This document shows positions 22,551 through 29,975 of a DNA stretch of 64,000 nt, one piece after another. The position numbers and the translations under genes were made by a program. Source of the DNA: Pararhizobium sp. YC-54 (GTDB taxonomy: Bacteria > Pseudomonadota > Alphaproteobacteria > Rhizobiales > Rhizobiaceae); assembly GCF_025847205.1 (NCBI RefSeq), contig NZ_JAOYTH010000018.1, forward strand, positions 1 to 64,000. Reading direction: 5' to 3'. The notes under the pieces are model-generated. The model was given only the letters and a program-made list of their open reading frames with translations. It was not told where the DNA came from and did no database searches. Every line of letters starts with the position of its first letter. The stretch's first letter is position 1.

Positions 22551-22581
22551 AAAAAGACGGAAGAACAGGGTCCTTCCGTCT
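22551..22581 (-). terminator. Terminator of the AAA+/DUF2333 operon
   Basis: GACGGAAG (22556-22563) pairs with CTTCCGTC (22573-22580). On the minus strand the stem is followed by UUUUU (A run 22551-22555). It lies 18 bases after the last gene of the operon. Confidence 0.85.
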
Positions 22582-22598: not shown

Positions 22599-23726
22599 TC
22601 AGCGCGCCAGGATATCGCGCATTTCGACAAGGTTTGAGCGAACCCTGAGCACATAGAAGCCGAGTGTCGCCAGATGCGTCGGCATGATCCAGCCATCTTC
22701 CTGGCCGTTGGAGATGATCAGCGGTTGGATGCGCAAGGCCGCACGCATCTGCTTGATGCTTTCATTCCAGATCGGCGCCAGACCGCGCTGGGTGATGATC
22801 CCGTCAAAGTCGGCGCCGGCGGCCGCCAGCACGCCGTAGTAGCCGTAGAGCTGGCCATAGGCGAACCAGAACCGGTCGTCTGCCCGCGTATCGAACCAGC
22901 CGCCGTTGAAATTCTCCGAACGTTCACGCAGCATCGCGGATGTGCTGCCGATCGAACTTGAAACGCGATCCATGAATTCCAGGAAATTGTCGGCGCGGGC
23001 GTCGAAGGTTGCCGCGCATGTCGCAAGTTGATCGTTGAAGGCGCGCAGATCCACCATGCCAGCACGATATTGCGTCGGCGTCGGCGTCAGAAAGCCAAAG
23101 GGCGACAGGCCGAAATACCAGTTGGTTTCCTCGTACTGCATCTTGCTGCGCACGCTCTGCAGCAAAGGATTGATACCGGATGTCCCGCGCATGCGCACCA
23201 GCGAATCGACAAGCTCAACCGTTGTCCGGCGCACCGCTTCGTTGACGCCGCGCTGGAACGACGCCTTGTTGTCGAGCCATGGCGTGCGATCCCAATCCAT
23301 CCCGAACAAGCCGGCCTTGTAGAGGACCATCGACGAGATCCAGGCGTTCTGGTTGACATTGTAGTCGATCAGATCGGCGGTGACATCAACGATGGCCGAA
23401 CGCTCGCAGGCATTGGCCGGCGCCGTCTGGCCGGCTGCGACCTTGATCGGCAGGCCAGCATCGTTCTTGCGCTCGGCAAGATTGTAGCGGTTGGGATAGT
23501 CCGGGTCGAAATTGGTCCAGACCTGCGTCTGCCAGATGAAATAGCCGTAGAGTGCGATGAGGGCGACAAGGGCAATCCCGATTGGCCCCTTGATGATCCA
23601 GGCGCGTCCCCTGTACCAGTTTGCGATGGTAAGGAACGGAAAAAGGATCCAGGCAATCACAAGGCCAATGCCCCGGCCGATCGCTGCAAACACACGCTGG
23701 AAAAACGCGACGATCGGATCAAGCAT
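22599..23726 (-). CDS. DUF2333 family membrane-anchored protein
   Basis: A 375-residue protein with an amphipathic N-terminus and two hydrophobic segments near residues 17-36 and 48-66 (GPIGIALVALIALYGYFIW), followed by a large domain with a cysteine pair (ACERS, ATCAATF) and many aromatic residues. It matches the DUF2333 pattern: GLSPFGFLTPTPTQY, NFNGGWFDTRADDRFW, GYYGVLAAAG. The large domain is probably periplasmic. No function is known. It is the last gene of the operon, overlaps the preceding gene by 8 bases, and is followed by the terminator. Confidence 0.75.
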   Translation of the reverse strand: MLDPIVAFFQRVFAAIGRGIGLVIAWILFPFLTIANWYRGRAWIIKGPIGIALVALIALYGYFIWQTQVWTNFDPDYPNRYNLAERKNDAGLPIKVAAGQTAPANACERSAIVDVTADLIDYNVNQNAWISSMVLYKAGLFGMDWDRTPWLDNKASFQRGVNEAVRRTTVELVDSLVRMRGTSGINPLLQSVRSKMQYEETNWYFGLSPFGFLTPTPTQYRAGMVDLRAFNDQLATCAATFDARADNFLEFMDRVSSSIGSTSAMLRERSENFNGGWFDTRADDRFWFAYGQLYGYYGVLAAAGADFDGIITQRGLAPIWNESIKQMRAALRIQPLIISNGQEDGWIMPTHLATLGFYVLRVRSNLVEMRDILAR

Positions 23727-25020
23727 TGGTTTTATCCTCCTTCAGCCCATAAAGGCGTTTTCGAAACGCGACCTTGTCCTTGAGATATGTGCCGGTCAGC
23801 GTTGCCACAACATATTCCCTGAACTTTTCGCTGTAATGTTCATAGGCCGCATAAAACCCCTGCTTGTCAAAGACGAAGCGGGAGACGAAATCGCTTCGGC
23901 AGAGCTGCGAAATCAGCCGGTTGGTGAGCCATTGATCGGGATGTTCGGGTGCCGCGCGAACCAGCAAAAAGCGGTTTGCCGGAGCAACGTCCTGCATCCT
24001 GATGCTGCCTGACGCCGAAACCGTGCGGATCATCGTCTGCAGGAACGGATAGGTGCCATCCGAGGCGACCAGTGCCGAATTGCGATGCATCCAGGTCTGC
24101 AGCCAGATGGAATCGATCGCGCTCAAATCCGTGGTCGGGTCCGCCTGGTTGACAAGTCCGCGCAGGATCATGTCGGCGCGGTGCTGATAGAGCCCGGATT
24201 CCTGCACCCAGGACGCCTGCGGCAATTGCAGCCGGTTGGTCGAAGCGAGGAACTCGTAGATGCGCTGATGGTCCGAGAGACTGATATAACTCACCTGCCA
24301 GGGCCGCGAGCGGCGAAACCCCGGCACGGACGGATCGCAGATGACCGTCGTCGTCTTCTCATCCAGAAAGACATAGACGCCGCCGAAATGATTTGCCCAG
24401 AAGGCATCGTGGCGAAACACCAGCTGATCGGGAACCAGGGCATTCTCGCGGATATCGCCGGTGAGCTTGGCAAGCTCGACCATCCGGTTGAGCAGCGCAT
24501 CGTCGGCCCAGGCCGTCGGAACCGACTTCAACCGGTCGACAAGGGAGCGCAACTCGGCTGCCTTGCCGAGCATGTCTTCGGCAGACAGCACGCGAAAGCG
24601 AACCTCGTTGATCGACAGGAGGTCGTCGATGTCGTTGACGACCGACACGGAATCCTCGATCTCGCCGTAGAGCGCGTCCTTGATCGTCACCGCATTGATC
24701 GCACGCCTGTTGGCGCCGAAAAACTCGTGCATCAGCGCTGCGGTATTGGAAAAGCTGGTGTGGACGACCGGAAGCTCCTCCTGATCGGGCGTCATGATGA
24801 TGAAGCGGCGGTTGACGCGGTTCGGGTCAAGGTAATCGCGGTCGCCGAGCTCGTCGGCGATCTCGGGCGAAAAGCCGGTCATGTCGATCTGGAAGGACGG
24901 CAGCGCCGTCGGCCGCAGGCCAAAGCCCTGGAGCGCCTTGTTATAACGCGCGATCAGATGCGGCTCGGAGATTTCGAGCAGGCGCCCATAGATCAGTTCA
25001 GCTTCGAGGAGGCGTTTCAT
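23719..25020 (-). CDS. DUF6638-like protein of the AAA+ operon
   Basis: A 433-residue soluble protein with no signal peptide or clear enzyme motif. I recall rhizobial proteins of this size and sequence (LLEAELIYGRLLEISEPHLIARYNKAL) being placed in DUF6638, but I cannot verify the number. It has a mixed alpha/beta content and several tryptophan/histidine-rich stretches (IWLQTWMHRN, HDAFWANHFGGVYVFLD). Its position, translationally coupled to the DUF2333 gene and behind the AAA+ ATPase, suggests a component of one complex. A toxin-antitoxin pair lies immediately upstream, the toxin stop being only 21 bases away. Confidence 0.6.
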   Translation of the reverse strand: MKRLLEAELIYGRLLEISEPHLIARYNKALQGFGLRPTALPSFQIDMTGFSPEIADELGDRDYLDPNRVNRRFIIMTPDQEELPVVHTSFSNTAALMHEFFGANRRAINAVTIKDALYGEIEDSVSVVNDIDDLLSINEVRFRVLSAEDMLGKAAELRSLVDRLKSVPTAWADDALLNRMVELAKLTGDIRENALVPDQLVFRHDAFWANHFGGVYVFLDEKTTTVICDPSVPGFRRSRPWQVSYISLSDHQRIYEFLASTNRLQLPQASWVQESGLYQHRADMILRGLVNQADPTTDLSAIDSIWLQTWMHRNSALVASDGTYPFLQTMIRTVSASGSIRMQDVAPANRFLLVRAAPEHPDQWLTNRLISQLCRSDFVSRFVFDKQGFYAAYEHYSEKFREYVVATLTGTYLKDKVAFRKRLYGLKEDKTNA

Positions 25021-25041
25021 GCGGCGCAGACCGTGGGCTGA

Positions 25042-25311
25042 TCATCTGTATATTTCACGTCGATGCCCGATCTCGACAATGAGCACGATAAGCTGCTTAT
25101 CGCGCAGTTCGCACAAAACCCGGAAGTCGCCGACCCTGTATCGCCAGAGATGGCCGAGCGCGCCTCCTTGCAGCGGTTTTCCCAGCAAACGCGGATTATC
25201 GAGCGCTGCAACGCGCTTGCGCAAATACTCTCGAATCCGAACAGCATCAGAGCGCCCCATCTTTTCAAGCTGCCGGAGTGCATCACCCGTCAGCTCAATC
25301 GTCCAGGCCAA
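25042..25311 (-). CDS. RelE/ParE-type toxin
   Basis: An 89-residue small basic protein with the RelE-fold pattern: [50 protein letters not shown] and the C-terminal [11 protein letters not shown]. Such toxins are ribosome-dependent mRNA interferases or gyrase poisons. No ATG is available at the right place. The TTG at 25311 overlaps the 3' end of the antitoxin gene by 17 bases, typical of such pairs, and gives the expected N-terminus. It is inserted within the AAA+ operon between the ATPase and the DUF6638-like gene. Confidence 0.85.
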
Positions 25312-25528
25312 GTTTCCGCTCAACTTCTTCCAGAGTGTAGGTGCGTGTCTCCCCGCGCGCCAATCTTTCCAGTACCTGTTCCGCCAGATAAATATCTTCG
25401 AGGTCCTCGAGATGCTCCTCGATTGCCTGGCGGATGTAGAACGTCGCCGTTCGCCCGGTGCGGGCCGCGAGCGCCTGCAATCGTTCATAAGTCTCGTCAG
25501 GAAGACGAATTGCTGTTTGCTTGGCCAT
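25295..25528 (-). CDS. Ribbon-helix-helix antitoxin
   Basis: A 77-residue protein with an N-terminal RHH DNA-binding domain ([43 protein letters not shown]) and an acidic C-terminal tail that would neutralise the toxin encoded just downstream. GGGAAAA-type purines precede the ATG. A partial palindrome (GGATAC..GTATACC) sits about 17 bases upstream and is the likely autoregulatory operator. Confidence 0.87.
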
Positions 25529-25544
25529 GACAATTTTCCCTGTG

Positions 25545-25559
25545 GGATACGTGTATACC
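25545..25559. promoter_or_regulatory. Predicted operator of the RelE-type toxin-antitoxin pair
   Basis: GGATAC (25545-25550) and GTATACC (25553-25559) form a near-palindrome 17 bases before the antitoxin start, where RHH antitoxins usually bind. Confidence 0.5.
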
Positions 25560-25615
25560 TTATAGCATCGCTATGGCTTCATTGCTACAACAGGCACGAG
25601 ATCGCTGAATTTCAC

Positions 25616-27532
25616 TTACCCCTGCCACCGCCCGTCCGCTTTCATCGCTTCGATCTCCCGGACCGCCTTCTCCCGCTGGCGTTCGCGGCGGATGATGTCG
25701 GTGACCGCGGCATCGTCGGATTTGTCGGTATAGCGGAACTCGCTGTCGGCGTAGCGGTTGATCTCCTGCATGACCATCTCAAGCGTGATCGGCCCACGCA
25801 GGGTTTCGATCATCGCTTTCTTTTCGTCATAGGTCTTGTGCATGAAAGCGTCCGGTGTCGCGAACCAGTCGTCGGGCAGGTCCACGTCCATCGCGCGCAT
25901 CTTGATCGCATCGGTGATGTTCTTGATCGCCCGGCCGGTAAAGCGCGGCTCGGCCTCCTTGATCATGTGCAGATAGGAGCCGACATCGGCCAGCGTTTCG
26001 ATCTTGCCCTCTTCCTTCTCGTGGCGTTCCCACACCGCCAGCAGCCCCTCTTCCTTGGGGCGCGCATGCTCCGCGTAGGATTGCGAAACGGCTTTCTTGA
26101 TTTCCTGGCCGGCAAGCAGCTGGTGTTCGCCAAGCGGGATCTTGTGGTTCTTGCCAACCAGCATGGCGAAGATGTCGATGTAGTCCCCTTCCGACTGCGG
26201 CCCATCGACCAGCCAGCGGGCGCCGGCGCGCTGGCGCAGCGCGTCATCGACGTTTTCGGGATAGTTGGAGAACATGCCGAAGGTGCAGTTGCCACGGATC
26301 ACAGTCGATGCACCGGCAAAGCTCTCCATCAGCACCGCCGTCACCTCGTGCTGGCCGGCCGACGCGCGGTCGTCCGAGCGCTTGGCCGCGACCTGATCGA
26401 CATCATCGATGGTGCCGAAGCCGATTGCCTTGGGGTTGACGACGTTGTTGACGAAGGCCTTGCAGTTCTGTCCTGATTTTCCCTGATAGGAGGAAATCTG
26501 GTCGACGCCGAAATTCTCGTAGTGGAAGGCGTAGCCGGCAATCTGACAGTAATCGTTGAGCAGACCGGCCAGCATCTGGATCAGAATGGTCTTGCCGGTG
26601 CCGGGCATGCCGTCGCCAATGAAGGTGAAGAGAAAACCGCCCAACTCGACGAACGGGTTCATCTGCCGCTCGAAATCATAGGCCATCAGCATTTTGGCCA
26701 GTTTCAGCGCCTGATACTTGGCAATGTGGTTGCCGATGATCTCTTCGGGCTTCTTGAAGGTCATGACCAACGGCTTGCGCTTCTGTCCGGGCGCGACATC
26801 GAACCCATCAAGCGTAAAATCGTCCTGATCCAGCCGGATATGAACATTCTCAAAGCTGGCAAGCCCGGTGAACCGGGCCTTGCGGCCGATCAATCCCTCA
26901 ATGGCAAGCCGTGCAAAAGCCCGCGCCCGGCTGGTCAGGGCCGCATCGTCGGGAGCCCCGGCGATCGTCCTGTCGAGTGCCGAGATCATGCCCTTCAGCG
27001 CATCCTGCGGCGTATCGAACAGGAAGTCAGGCTCCGTTCCATCCTCGACCGGTTCGCCTTCCCCGGCGAGCGTCGCGCCAAGATAGGCCGCGAAGGTGAA
27101 GGCGGCGATATAGGCCGACGCCGATAGCAAAGCCTTGAACTGTGTGGCGTCCTCGCCGGAAAGCGGCGCAGTTGCATTGCGCGATTGCAGGCCTTCAAGA
27201 TTGGTCTGGCGGGCAAAGACATCGGCGACGGCAAGCGCCACCTGGACGCCCCGCCGGGAACGATAGAGCAGCGCGTGCTGGGCAGGCGAAAAGAGAGGAT
27301 CAGAAGCGCGGACCGACTGAATGGTCTTGGTCAGCTCCACTTCACGCGTGCGCCGCTGTCCACCGGTCGAAACCGTGGAGACGAAACGGCGCCCGGTACC
27401 GGCCAGCGCCGTTCCCGCCGACGGATCGTCGGCTTCAAGGATGATCAGCCGGGTAACAAAGCCCTGCGCTACCGCAAGATGCTTGGCGATGTCGTCCTCG
27501 TGCAATGTCGTCAAACCCGTGTTCAGTGACAT
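25616..27532 (-). CDS. AAA+ ATPase of the uncharacterised operon
   Basis: A 638-residue protein. Residues 1-290 are an unassigned N-terminal region with one hydrophobic stretch near 133-155 (KALLSASAYIAAFTFAAYLGATLAG). A AAA+ core follows, with Walker A GDGMPGTGKT (306-315), Walker B GFGTIDDVD (371-379), a sensor-1 asparagine in FSNYPE near 423 and an arginine-finger-like RQRAGARW near 433-440. The C-terminus is charged and helical (RRERQREKAVREIEAM). It is probably a hexameric remodelling ATPase acting on a partner from its own operon. It follows the previous gene after 3 bases, so the two are tightly coupled. Family name not known to me. Confidence 0.78.
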   Translation of the reverse strand: MSLNTGLTTLHEDDIAKHLAVAQGFVTRLIILEADDPSAGTALAGTGRRFVSTVSTGGQRRTREVELTKTIQSVRASDPLFSPAQHALLYRSRRGVQVALAVADVFARQTNLEGLQSRNATAPLSGEDATQFKALLSASAYIAAFTFAAYLGATLAGEGEPVEDGTEPDFLFDTPQDALKGMISALDRTIAGAPDDAALTSRARAFARLAIEGLIGRKARFTGLASFENVHIRLDQDDFTLDGFDVAPGQKRKPLVMTFKKPEEIIGNHIAKYQALKLAKMLMAYDFERQMNPFVELGGFLFTFIGDGMPGTGKTILIQMLAGLLNDYCQIAGYAFHYENFGVDQISSYQGKSGQNCKAFVNNVVNPKAIGFGTIDDVDQVAAKRSDDRASAGQHEVTAVLMESFAGASTVIRGNCTFGMFSNYPENVDDALRQRAGARWLVDGPQSEGDYIDIFAMLVGKNHKIPLGEHQLLAGQEIKKAVSQSYAEHARPKEEGLLAVWERHEKEEGKIETLADVGSYLHMIKEAEPRFTGRAIKNITDAIKMRAMDVDLPDDWFATPDAFMHKTYDEKKAMIETLRGPITLEMVMQEINRYADSEFRYTDKSDDAAVTDIIRRERQREKAVREIEAMKADGRWQG

Positions 27533-27535
27533 TGT

Positions 27536-28684
27536 CTATACCTCGCTGATGACCTGGTTTCCGGAAATCACGTGCACCTTGTAGTCGCCGAAGATCGCCG
27601 CCGCATCGCCGGCCGCATAGAGCGCCTGATAGGCGTCGTGCGGCACCAGCGCATGCTTCTCGTAGGAACTCACGCCCATGCGCGTCGCTTCGAGATTGTC
27701 GGTATCGATATGGAATTCTTCCGATGCCGGCGTCGATGAAAAGAAACCGCGCTGGGCGGGTCGCTCCGCTTTGGAGAAAACCTCCTGCACGGTCCAGGTC
27801 AGAAGCCAGGCGTTTTCCGTCTTGCGGACCTTGGAGAGGATATCGTTGATCTTGGCATTGTTCTCGGTAATCCCGGCCGAATAGAACGGCCCGAGCACGA
27901 TGCGGCGCAACTGCTTGGGATGCAGTTCCTCGAAATCCTTGTCGAGATTGGTGGCGATCGTTACCGGCGTCAGCGAATAGGCGCTGTTCTTCAAGGCAAA
28001 ATCATCAAAACGGCTGGCAAGATCCGGATTGAGCAATCCGCCGATCGGCAGCGGAATATCCGTATCGGGATTGAGCTTGCCGTCCGGTGTCACCAAAAGG
28101 TCGATGATCTTTTTCGACGAATCCTCAATGGTCGCCATATAGACCATCGGCAGCGTGCTTGCGCCGTCAAAGGCGCCCCAGCAGACAACGTAATAGGGCC
28201 GCATGGTTTTCGGGTTGACGCCGACGCGGATCGTCTCGGGCATGATGAAGGGCGAAAAGATATCACCCTTGCCGATCTGCTCGAGATAGAGCCGCTCAGC
28301 CATGCGTGACTGCAATTCGGTTGGAAACGCCTTCTGCCGCAGGATGAAATCGGCCATTTCCTGACGCAGAGCGTCTGCGACCGGAATCCCGGCAAGCCGC
28401 TTTTCAGCCGATTGCCGGTCGTTTTCCAGCTCCAGCACATTCTGGAACACCGGAAAGCCGCTTTCGGCCCGCGAGATGCGGAACTGCTCGATGAAGCCGA
28501 TGCGGTTTTCCCAGCAGGAGAACGATGATTTCAGCCGCGACAGGTACGGAACGATGACCTCGCCCACCACCGTATCCCGGTAGAGCGGCGCGTTGCGGTC
28601 ACTGAGAAAAATTTCAAGCCCGCCCAGCGCTGCCCGGATCGAGGCGAAATACTGGCCGACGGCACCTTCGGATGCGGCGTTCAT
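27536..28684 (-). CDS. Conserved operon protein of unknown function (382 aa)
   Basis: A soluble 382-residue protein with no signal peptide, membrane helix or recognisable catalytic motif. The N-terminal half is helical (LRQEMADFILRQKAFPTEL); the C-terminal half looks alpha/beta. It ends 3 bases before the AAA+ ATPase start, so stoichiometric expression and physical association with the ATPase are likely. Upstream, a 149-bp inverted-repeat element separates it from the coiled-coil gene. I do not recognise the family. Confidence 0.6.
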   Translation of the reverse strand: MNAASEGAVGQYFASIRAALGGLEIFLSDRNAPLYRDTVVGEVIVPYLSRLKSSFSCWENRIGFIEQFRISRAESGFPVFQNVLELENDRQSAEKRLAGIPVADALRQEMADFILRQKAFPTELQSRMAERLYLEQIGKGDIFSPFIMPETIRVGVNPKTMRPYYVVCWGAFDGASTLPMVYMATIEDSSKKIIDLLVTPDGKLNPDTDIPLPIGGLLNPDLASRFDDFALKNSAYSLTPVTIATNLDKDFEELHPKQLRRIVLGPFYSAGITENNAKINDILSKVRKTENAWLLTWTVQEVFSKAERPAQRGFFSSTPASEEFHIDTDNLEATRMGVSSYEKHALVPHDAYQALYAAGDAAAIFGDYKVHVISGNQVISEV

Positions 28685-28711
28685 GATCGGTTGCTCGGAA
28701 TATGAGGACGC

Positions 28712-28860
28712 TTACCCCCCTCTGTCGGCGATGCCGACATCTCCCCCTCAAGGGGGGAGATTATTCTTTTCCCGGTCAGCTTTAGTAAGGCCAGCACCAA
28801 AGCCCGCGGCCGATCTCCCCCCTTGAGGGGGGGATGTCCCGGAGGGACAGAGGGGGGTAA
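28712..28860. repeat. 149-bp inverted-repeat element within the AAA+ operon
   Basis: Perfect 15-bp terminal inverted repeats (TTACCCCCCTCTGTC at 28712-28726 and its complement at 28846-28860) enclose further hairpins: GTCGGC-GAT-GCCGAC (28725-28739), ATCTCCCCC..GGGGGAGAT (28739-28761) and a matching copy near the right end. It has the C/G-tract mosaic appearance of rhizobial intergenic repeats. It fills most of the 202-base gap between the coiled-coil gene and the next operon gene. Confidence 0.8.
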
Positions 28861-28886
28861 CCCTCGGCAGACTGAAAGAGCCTCCA

Positions 28887-29975
28887 TCACGACTTCACGT
28901 AATTCGCCGAATTGTGCTTGTCCATGACAGCCTGGAACCGCCGGGCAAACGCATCGTCGGCGAGCTTCTTGCGGCGCTGGATGTCCTGGGTGGAGAGCAT
29001 GTTCTTCTCGTGCATTTCCAGGAGATCGCCGATGTGGCGCTGCGAGGCCGAGCCGATGCCGGCCATGGTTTCCTCGGCTGCCGTATCGACCTGACTGCCA
29101 AGCGTGTTGATCTTGTGGGCGACATCCTGCTGAGCCGCGGTCTTCAGCGAATCCTCCAGTGCCTTGTAAAGCACGATGCGCTGTTCGGTATCGATCGTCA
29201 GCTTGTTGATCAGCGTGTTCTGGGCGGCGATCTGATTGTTCAGCGAATCGACGAAGGTCTGGAACATCGAGGTATAGCGCTCGTATGTCTGGCTCTCGGC
29301 CAACAGTTCCTGCTCCTTCGCCTGCTTCTCGTTATACTCGGTCGCCAGAACCGAGCGTTCGCCCTCAAGCTGCGTGCGGGAAATCTGGTCGGTGGAGGCG
29401 GCGATCTTGTTTTCGATGTCCATCAGCATCGGGTTCAGTTCCTCGATCCGCTTCTGGGTTTCCTGCAGGTTCGCAATCGTACCCTTGCGGCGCTCGATCA
29501 CCTGCAACAGGCTTGCCTCGGACGTCTTGTAGCGCTGTTCGAGAACGCTCTTCTGTTCCTTCAGGATGCCGACGATCGTATCGGATTTCGCCAAAAGTTC
29601 CTGCAGATTGCCGGCAAGCGACATGTTGCGGACGCGGTCGGTGCGCATGCGCTGGGCGCTCTGCTTGGAGAAGATGCCGATGAATTTCTCGTAGCCGGTA
29701 TAGCTCTTCATGCTCTCGAACTCGGCGCCGAAAACATTGGTCGCGTCTTCCAGGCCGATGATCAGGTCAGCAATATTGCCTTCCATCACCTTCTGCTGGT
29801 TGATGACGTCCTGGATGCGGGCATTCTCGATGTCGAAATTTGCATCGCCCAGCTTGGTGTCGGATTTGGCAAACTGGTCGAGCACGACGGCCGACTGGTT
29901 CATCTTGCCGCGCATCTGTTCGACGATGCTGCGGGTTTTCTCGATTTCGCTCTCAAAATTCTGAAGTGTCGCCAT
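28887..29975 (-). CDS. Long coiled-coil protein, first gene of the AAA+ operon
   Basis: A 362-residue, almost entirely helical protein (FESEIEKTRSIVEQMRGKMN, repeated QE/KL heptads, LETQKRIEELNPMLMDIENK) with no signal peptide or membrane segment. In shape it resembles TelA/toxic-anion-resistance proteins, but the similarity is of architecture only. It may be a scaffold or the substrate of the AAA+ ATPase. It is the promoter-proximal gene of the operon, and a good promoter lies about 70 bases upstream. The TelA-like reading is uncertain. Confidence 0.6.
   Translation of the reverse strand: MATLQNFESEIEKTRSIVEQMRGKMNQSAVVLDQFAKSDTKLGDANFDIENARIQDVINQQKVMEGNIADLIIGLEDATNVFGAEFESMKSYTGYEKFIGIFSKQSAQRMRTDRVRNMSLAGNLQELLAKSDTIVGILKEQKSVLEQRYKTSEASLLQVIERRKGTIANLQETQKRIEELNPMLMDIENKIAASTDQISRTQLEGERSVLATEYNEKQAKEQELLAESQTYERYTSMFQTFVDSLNNQIAAQNTLINKLTIDTEQRIVLYKALEDSLKTAAQQDVAHKINTLGSQVDTAAEETMAGIGSASQRHIGDLLEMHEKNMLSTQDIQRRKKLADDAFARRFQAVMDKHNSANYVKS

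Follow-up and report, generated by a model that had tools for sequence, protein, structure and literature searches.

A co-inherited four-gene AAA ATPase block and its exchangeable membrane partner in Pararhizobium and other genomes

The described systems closest to the locus considered here are Vps4 with ESCRT-III, and the PspA/Snf7 proteins with the AAA ATPases encoded beside them, as reported in the portion of the PSP paper drawn on here (PMC11237479). Five minus-strand genes of Pararhizobium sp. YC-54, lying within a window of 64,000 nucleotides (contig NZ_JAOYTH010000018.1, positions 1 to 64,000), share with these systems a classical AAA ATPase gene beside a gene for a mainly helical coiled-coil protein, with a membrane partner nearby. 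We label them G1 (coiled-coil protein), G2 (unknown fold), G3 (AAA ATPase), G4 (a protein of the domain-of-unknown-function family DUF6638) and G5 (DUF2333); they are listed in Table 1. G1 differs from PspA/Snf7 in having no sequence link to them, and the same portion of PMC11237479 names neither G2 nor DUF6638, DUF2333 or DUF1523, the last being a second membrane protein described below; nor did a full-text search on DUF6638 and DUF2333 bring up that paper. The original prediction, made from the letters of the window, knew of no described function for this combination, and we likewise found no account of the system in the open-licence literature, whether by DUF names or by related descriptions. 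Comparison of sequences among genomes shows a co-inherited four-gene unit, in which G1 depends on the ATPase, or motor, and which is served by a swappable membrane partner.

The order of the core genes is conserved well beyond the genus. Among 80 named loci, selected as the best by similarity of the ATPase and hence biased to Rhizobiaceae, 79 carry all five genes in order, the remaining one being a 5.2-kb contig that ends after G4. Searches of the order and the class yielded 29 loci, 28 of which show G1-G2-G3-G4 in this order on one strand, the exception (L063) starting inside G3 at a contig end; a wider search of the class added five loci, all of which keep the order of G1 to G4. Co-occurrence was counted in one draw of 199 genomes from the order, matched by genome handle, which served all four queries: G3 was present in 31, G1 in 32, G4 in 32 and G2 in 29, with all four core genes in 29 genomes, none in 165, and five exceptions. 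Two of these (G321 and G349, 78% and 58% complete) have their G3 and G4 on short contigs (6.3 and 4.5 kb); one (G281, 97% complete and 7% contaminated) has a partial DUF6638 gene on a 3.2-kb contig; the other two (G212 and G374) retain only a divergent G1 as a remnant. The system is patchy in the class (G3 in 10 of 387 genomes, eight of the matches strong), and in a class sample of 192 genomes DUF6638 occurred in four, each of them G3-positive. Pairwise values of omega against three close relatives were 0.025-0.030 for G1, 0.041-0.046 for G2, 0.038-0.059 for G3, 0.051-0.068 for G4 and 0.052-0.060 for G5, the flanking FTHFS gene giving 0.036-0.055; purifying selection on all five genes is thus strong.

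The homologues are not scattered, which would have refuted the operon first proposed, and in loci and genome draws alike the set proved to be really co-inherited, mostly without the toxin-antitoxin insert present in the window. What has to be redrawn is its boundary: the unit is not five genes but the G1-G4 core with a membrane protein that may be DUF2333, DUF1523 or encoded elsewhere. Because G1 to G4 are kept or lost as a block, and recur in Vibrio and a viral contig, this core, beside which a membrane protein is usually encoded, is probably a single machine. Its four families, of which G1, G2 and DUF6638 have no described function that we could find, form one genetic unit in lineages as far apart as Rhizobiaceae and Vibrio.

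Natural losses of the motor offer a ready test of dependence among these genes. We read 9-19 kb around DUF2333 in 20 motor-less genomes, 19 of them from a family draw of 111 genomes and the twentieth being G374, and found none of G2, G3 and G4 in these stretches; genome-wide, G3 was absent from all 20 and G1 from 17. ProX adjoins DUF2333 in 19 of the 20, while the remaining stretch, which begins at a contig end, contains the cytochrome gene; TK was seen in 11 of the 20 loci (with DUF2333 on the opposite strand from it in L178) and FTHFS in eight. A G1 remnant persists in three (L171, L172 and L185). To match for divergence, we took loci whose FTHFS is 80-87% identical to that of the window, identities being those of the best BLAST segment. 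The 29 motor-bearing loci in this range, of 83 compared, have G1 at 79-90% (median 83) and DUF2333 at 53-66% (median 58), whereas the three remnants, with FTHFS at 83-85%, have G1 at 23-30% and DUF2333 at 58-61%. DUF2333 stands at 55-65% in all seven motor-less loci of the same FTHFS range, and at 49-73% across all 20. The sequence of G1 is therefore kept only beside the motor and that of DUF2333 regardless, so that G1 depends on the motor and DUF2333 does not. This contrast is our best evidence on the wiring of the system, and suggests that G1 works with the motor while DUF2333 has an independent role on which the motor may draw. From the spread of the full set in the order, together with the G1 remnants, we infer that the set was ancestral and then lost, not gained.

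The fifth gene is the variable member. G5 passes the DUF2333 (PF10095) cut-off with 56.8 bits against 22 (E 2.4e-15), and its description as a two-helix membrane protein is borne out by hydrophobic segments at residues 12-30 and 42-60 in simple hydropathy analysis, which predicted no membrane segment in G1 to G4. Two cysteines, C107 and C237, are invariant in 19 aligned DUF2333 sequences of this operon. DUF2333 follows G4 in 21 of the 29 order and class loci; one of the eight without it (L062) is a contig end, and five of the eight have another open reading frame (ORF) after G4 in common, which matched DUF1523 in all three cases scanned (E 4e-55 or better), the one protein tested having two hydrophobic segments. 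DUF2333 and DUF1523 would thus be exchangeable membrane partners of G1-G4, the role of DUF1523 as a partner being probable. In the family draw G3 occurs in 65 genomes, G1 in 67 (the extra two degenerate) and DUF2333 in 84; DUF2333 is present in all 65 G3 genomes, 19 genomes have it without G3, and 27 have none of the three. Outside the operon, DUF2333 adjoins an extracytoplasmic-function (ECF) sigma/anti-sigma pair in three of five annotated loci, all three being plasmid records without G3. The invariant cysteines, which fit a periplasmic domain, and these ECF neighbours are modest grounds for assigning the system to the envelope.

Replicons other than chromosomes extend the range. Of 72,556 plasmid records, ten carry G3: four from Sinorhizobium and one from Shinella, which are chromosome-like (3.5-4.6 Mb), R. 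leguminosarum pRlX5, and four from Vibrio (0.88-0.94 Mb). A V. vulnificus megaplasmid has G1 to G4 in order (hidden Markov model (HMM) E-values 3e-94, 1e-76, 6e-202 and 5e-82), the genes are arranged in the same way in V. parahaemolyticus CP099927, and the other two Vibrio records are represented by matches to G3 and G1 only. DUF2333 is not adjacent in the two Vibrio loci read, yet lies elsewhere on all four Vibrio records, and is present on nine of the ten plasmid records with G3, which represent few independent lineages. A 359-kb contig from a viral collection, on whose call its viral identity rests, carries DUF2333 (Pfam 8e-91), G1, G2, G3 and G4 on one strand, DUF2333 coming first and G2 and G3 lying some 0.9 kb apart, with two small ORFs in the interval. 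Among its neighbours are genes for DnaJ, SmpB, deformylase, a Clp-type ATPase and FliM- and FliG-like proteins, as well as a weak match to spanin; the part of the contig that was scanned showed no recognisable gene for a capsid or terminase.

Some neighbours on these replicons may be recorded in their own right. On pRlX5 an RpoD-like sigma factor, with sigma-70 regions 1 to 4 matched, follows G1-G4 (L199, 12416-14452). On two Vibrio megaplasmids the gene after G4 is annotated as mfd, the transcription-repair coupling factor (L195, 12283-15744; L202, 11283-14744). Upstream of the block on the viral contig lie genes with a FliG middle domain and a FliM-like product (L201, 518-1425).

G3 passes the Pfam AAA (PF00004) cut-off with 41.3 bits against 21.2 (E 2.6e-10). 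Across alignments its Walker A motif (GDGxPGTGKT) is conserved, as are N423, which we take to be the sensor-1 Asn, and DDALRQRAGAR, presumably the Arg-finger region. The Walker B motif, TIDDVD, has a DD pair that does not vary in either of two overlapping alignments, one of 22 homologues and one of 10, the smaller of which includes Vibrio. The catalytic residue at this site is usually Glu in AAA ATPases; G3 has Asp there and so departs from a standard catalytically active AAA ATPase, a matter of activity and not of family membership. An ATPase with intact Walker A, Walker B and sensor residues had been predicted, and this holds for Walker A and the sensor-1 Asn, and for Walker B with the qualification that Asp replaces the catalytic Glu. 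The AAA module aligns weakly with Cdc48, proteasomal and FtsH-type AAA domains; G3 differs from these in that the matches span only residues 285-470 or so, in its Walker B Asp, and in that a Pfam search of G3 gave no protease domain. In one genome (G359; L054, 9555-11475) G3 is split into two ORFs of 221 and 426 residues, possibly by a frameshift or an assembly error.

No Pfam family matched G1 or G2 above its cut-off, searches of all five proteins against NCBIfam, PHROGs and PADLOC (2023 library) returned weak matches only, and no solved structural relatives of G1, G2 or DUF6638 were found. G1, the best conserved of the five among close relatives, is modelled with long helices at residues 121-193 and 197-304; neither the window protein nor nine members had PspA_IM30 or Snf7 among the matches listed. 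TelA is a helical protein, and G1 resembles it in this and in length. The original prediction limited the resemblance to shape, rightly so: an HMM-HMM comparison (hhalign) with six TelA sequences gave a probability of 1.9%, against 0.8% and 0.5% for reversed controls. G1 was rejected as a TelA, PF05816 having no match in the window protein (E 1) or in nine members (0.1); moreover, the YC-54 genome itself has no TelA match, and genome G022 has both TelA and a G1-G4-type system, on separate contigs. G2 is modelled with a helical N-terminal part followed by a beta-beta-alpha-alpha-beta-beta region (residues 158-344). This order of elements defines the T-fold (tunnelling fold) of urate oxidase, PTPS, DHNA and GTP cyclohydrolase I, and T-fold families account for 39 of the 50 structural matches listed for G2; the model is no more than suggestive of a T-fold-like region. 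G4 passes the DUF6638 (PF20343) cut-off with 247.7 bits against 27 (E 2.8e-73).

Our preferred reading, to which we give a probability of about 0.4, is that G1-G4 form the cytoplasmic core of an ATP-driven machine whose motor acts on assemblies of G1 and is coupled to the envelope, with G5 (DUF2333, and elsewhere probably DUF1523) as an exchangeable, periplasm-facing inner-membrane partner. G3 would be a ring-forming AAA motor, with G2 and G4 as adaptors or ring partners; its client would be the long helical G1, as a membrane-proximal oligomer or coat which the motor would load or disassemble. DUF2333 or DUF1523 would link this remodelling with the envelope, and the machine would most likely serve in the maintenance of the envelope or under envelope stress. 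Such a working mode would be like that of Vps4 on ESCRT-III without membership of that family, and it is in this form that we infer the motor, filament and anchor mechanism of the original prediction. That these genes represent an undescribed class of membrane-linked bacterial AAA machine, in which a motor is combined with a helical client that is conserved only beside it, with DUF6638 and with what may be a T-fold ring protein, docking on interchangeable periplasm-facing membrane proteins, acquired by a large virus and by megaplasmids, and of an origin separate from ESCRT-III/PspA, is a broader proposition that we consider tentative and on balance doubtful.

Several findings weigh against the preferred reading. 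The structural model of G1 is weak (pLDDT 70, pTM 0.51), its comparison with known folds yields helical background, and no sequence link of G1 to ESCRT-III, PspA or TelA was found. With Asp in place of the Walker B Glu, normal ATP hydrolysis by G3 is less assured, and hydrolysis could be slow. Among the motor-less genomes, absence of G2 and G4 genome-wide was established in G212 and G374, the other 18 having been searched genome-wide for G3 and G1 only. On the side of the membrane partner, pRlX5 has G1-G4 on a record without DUF2333; the link of DUF2333 to ECF pairs fails in two of the five loci (Vibrio and Photobacterium); the gene after DUF6638 lacks an identification in L056 and L059; and the followers in L162-L166 were checked for DUF2333 only.

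Other arrangements of the same parts deserve weighing. The four core proteins might constitute a complex that unfolds or extracts the membrane protein (DUF2333 or DUF1523), or proteins that the latter hands over, with G1 serving as adaptor or tether and not as client. The weak matches that place G3 nearest to Cdc48, proteasomal and FtsH-type domains would suit this, as would the distribution in the family draw, where no G3 genome lacks DUF2333 and 19 genomes have DUF2333 alone of the two. However, loci matched for divergence have DUF2333 about equally conserved without the motor and with it, which suggests that DUF2333 can function in the absence of the motor, and we regard this version as unlikely. 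It is also conceivable that the machine is purely cytoplasmic and plays no part at the envelope, DUF2333 and DUF1523 being mere neighbours in Rhizobiales: the core occurs without adjacent DUF2333 in Vibrio and on pRlX5, and has no predicted membrane segment of its own. Against such a coincidence, DUF2333 also adjoins the core on the viral contig, where the gene order differs, and shares a replicon with G3 in all four Vibrio cases and in nine of the ten plasmid records, lineages being few; we judge a purely cytoplasmic role quite unlikely.

Carriage by megaplasmids and one viral contig, with toxin-antitoxin and DUF559 cargo alongside, could instead point to a defence system or one engaged in mobile-element conflict. 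The locus is, however, conserved and chromosomal, single-copy in the genomes of the family draw when split contigs are disregarded, and under housekeeping-like selection, and the PADLOC match was confined to a weak hit to the TRIP13 model (1.3e-5) through the AAA domain, all of which makes defence very improbable. Chance neighbours under one promoter would be easier to credit given a G3-G4 gap of at least 300 bases in 46 of the 80 named loci, and of 1.9 kb in one; this explanation is already contradicted by the identical G1-G4 order in Alphaproteobacteria, Vibrio and the viral contig and by the joint absence of the genes, and deserves almost no credence.

The functions of DUF6638, DUF2333 and DUF1523 are directly testable, given that S. 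meliloti strains carry the full set (L092 and L196). The L196 record, of 3.7 Mb and labelled pSymB, has FTHFS together with the locus and looks chromosomal.

Table 1. Features of the locus, in coordinates of the window
Feature	Coordinates	Strand	Remarks
G1	28887-29975	-	362 residues; helical coiled-coil protein; ORF confirmed
G2	27536-28684	-	382 residues; ORF confirmed
G3	25616-27532	-	638 residues; AAA ATPase; Walker A GDGMPGTGKT, Walker B TxDDxD
G4	23719-25020	-	433 residues; DUF6638 (PF20343) protein
G5	22599-23726	-	375 residues; DUF2333 (PF10095) protein; N-terminal hydrophobic segments
Promoter-like element CTTGTG ... TTATATAA	30044-30076	-	upstream of G1; alignment of relatives
Terminator-like hairpin and T-run	22555-22581	-	3' of G5; terminator scan
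RelB-like antitoxin and ParE toxin	RelB-like 25295-25528; ParE within 25042-25533	-	between G3 and G4

All five minus-strand ORFs were recovered where they had been predicted, as were the spacing of 3 bases between G2 and G3 and the overlap of 8 bases between G4 and G5. The signals at the two ends of the operon fared less evenly. Where a clean terminator was claimed there is a terminator-like 12-pair hairpin with its T-run, in a scan that returned 13 sites against 9.3 (sd 2.6) in shuffled sequence. For the claimed promoter, a consensus scan gave no site upstream of G1 (three sites in total against 2.5 by chance), whereas an element CTTGT...TATATA was conserved by eye in nine of 31 aligned relatives picked from the 80 named loci, all nine of the Rhizobium/Sinorhizobium type.

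The gap between G3 and G4 is a cargo site, and the toxin-antitoxin pair of the window is variable cargo and not part of the system: the pair was found in eight of the 80 named loci and in none of the 29 order and class loci. Ten gap ORFs scanned from nine loci comprised one ParE, one helix-turn-helix protein, five DUF559 endonucleases and three without a match. In S. meliloti L196 an insertion sequence (IS) element lies in this gap too. Between G1 and G2, a C-rich palindromic repeat is present as two inverted copies (28738-28836); the window holds two matches against 0.06 expected, and one of 100 shuffles reached two.

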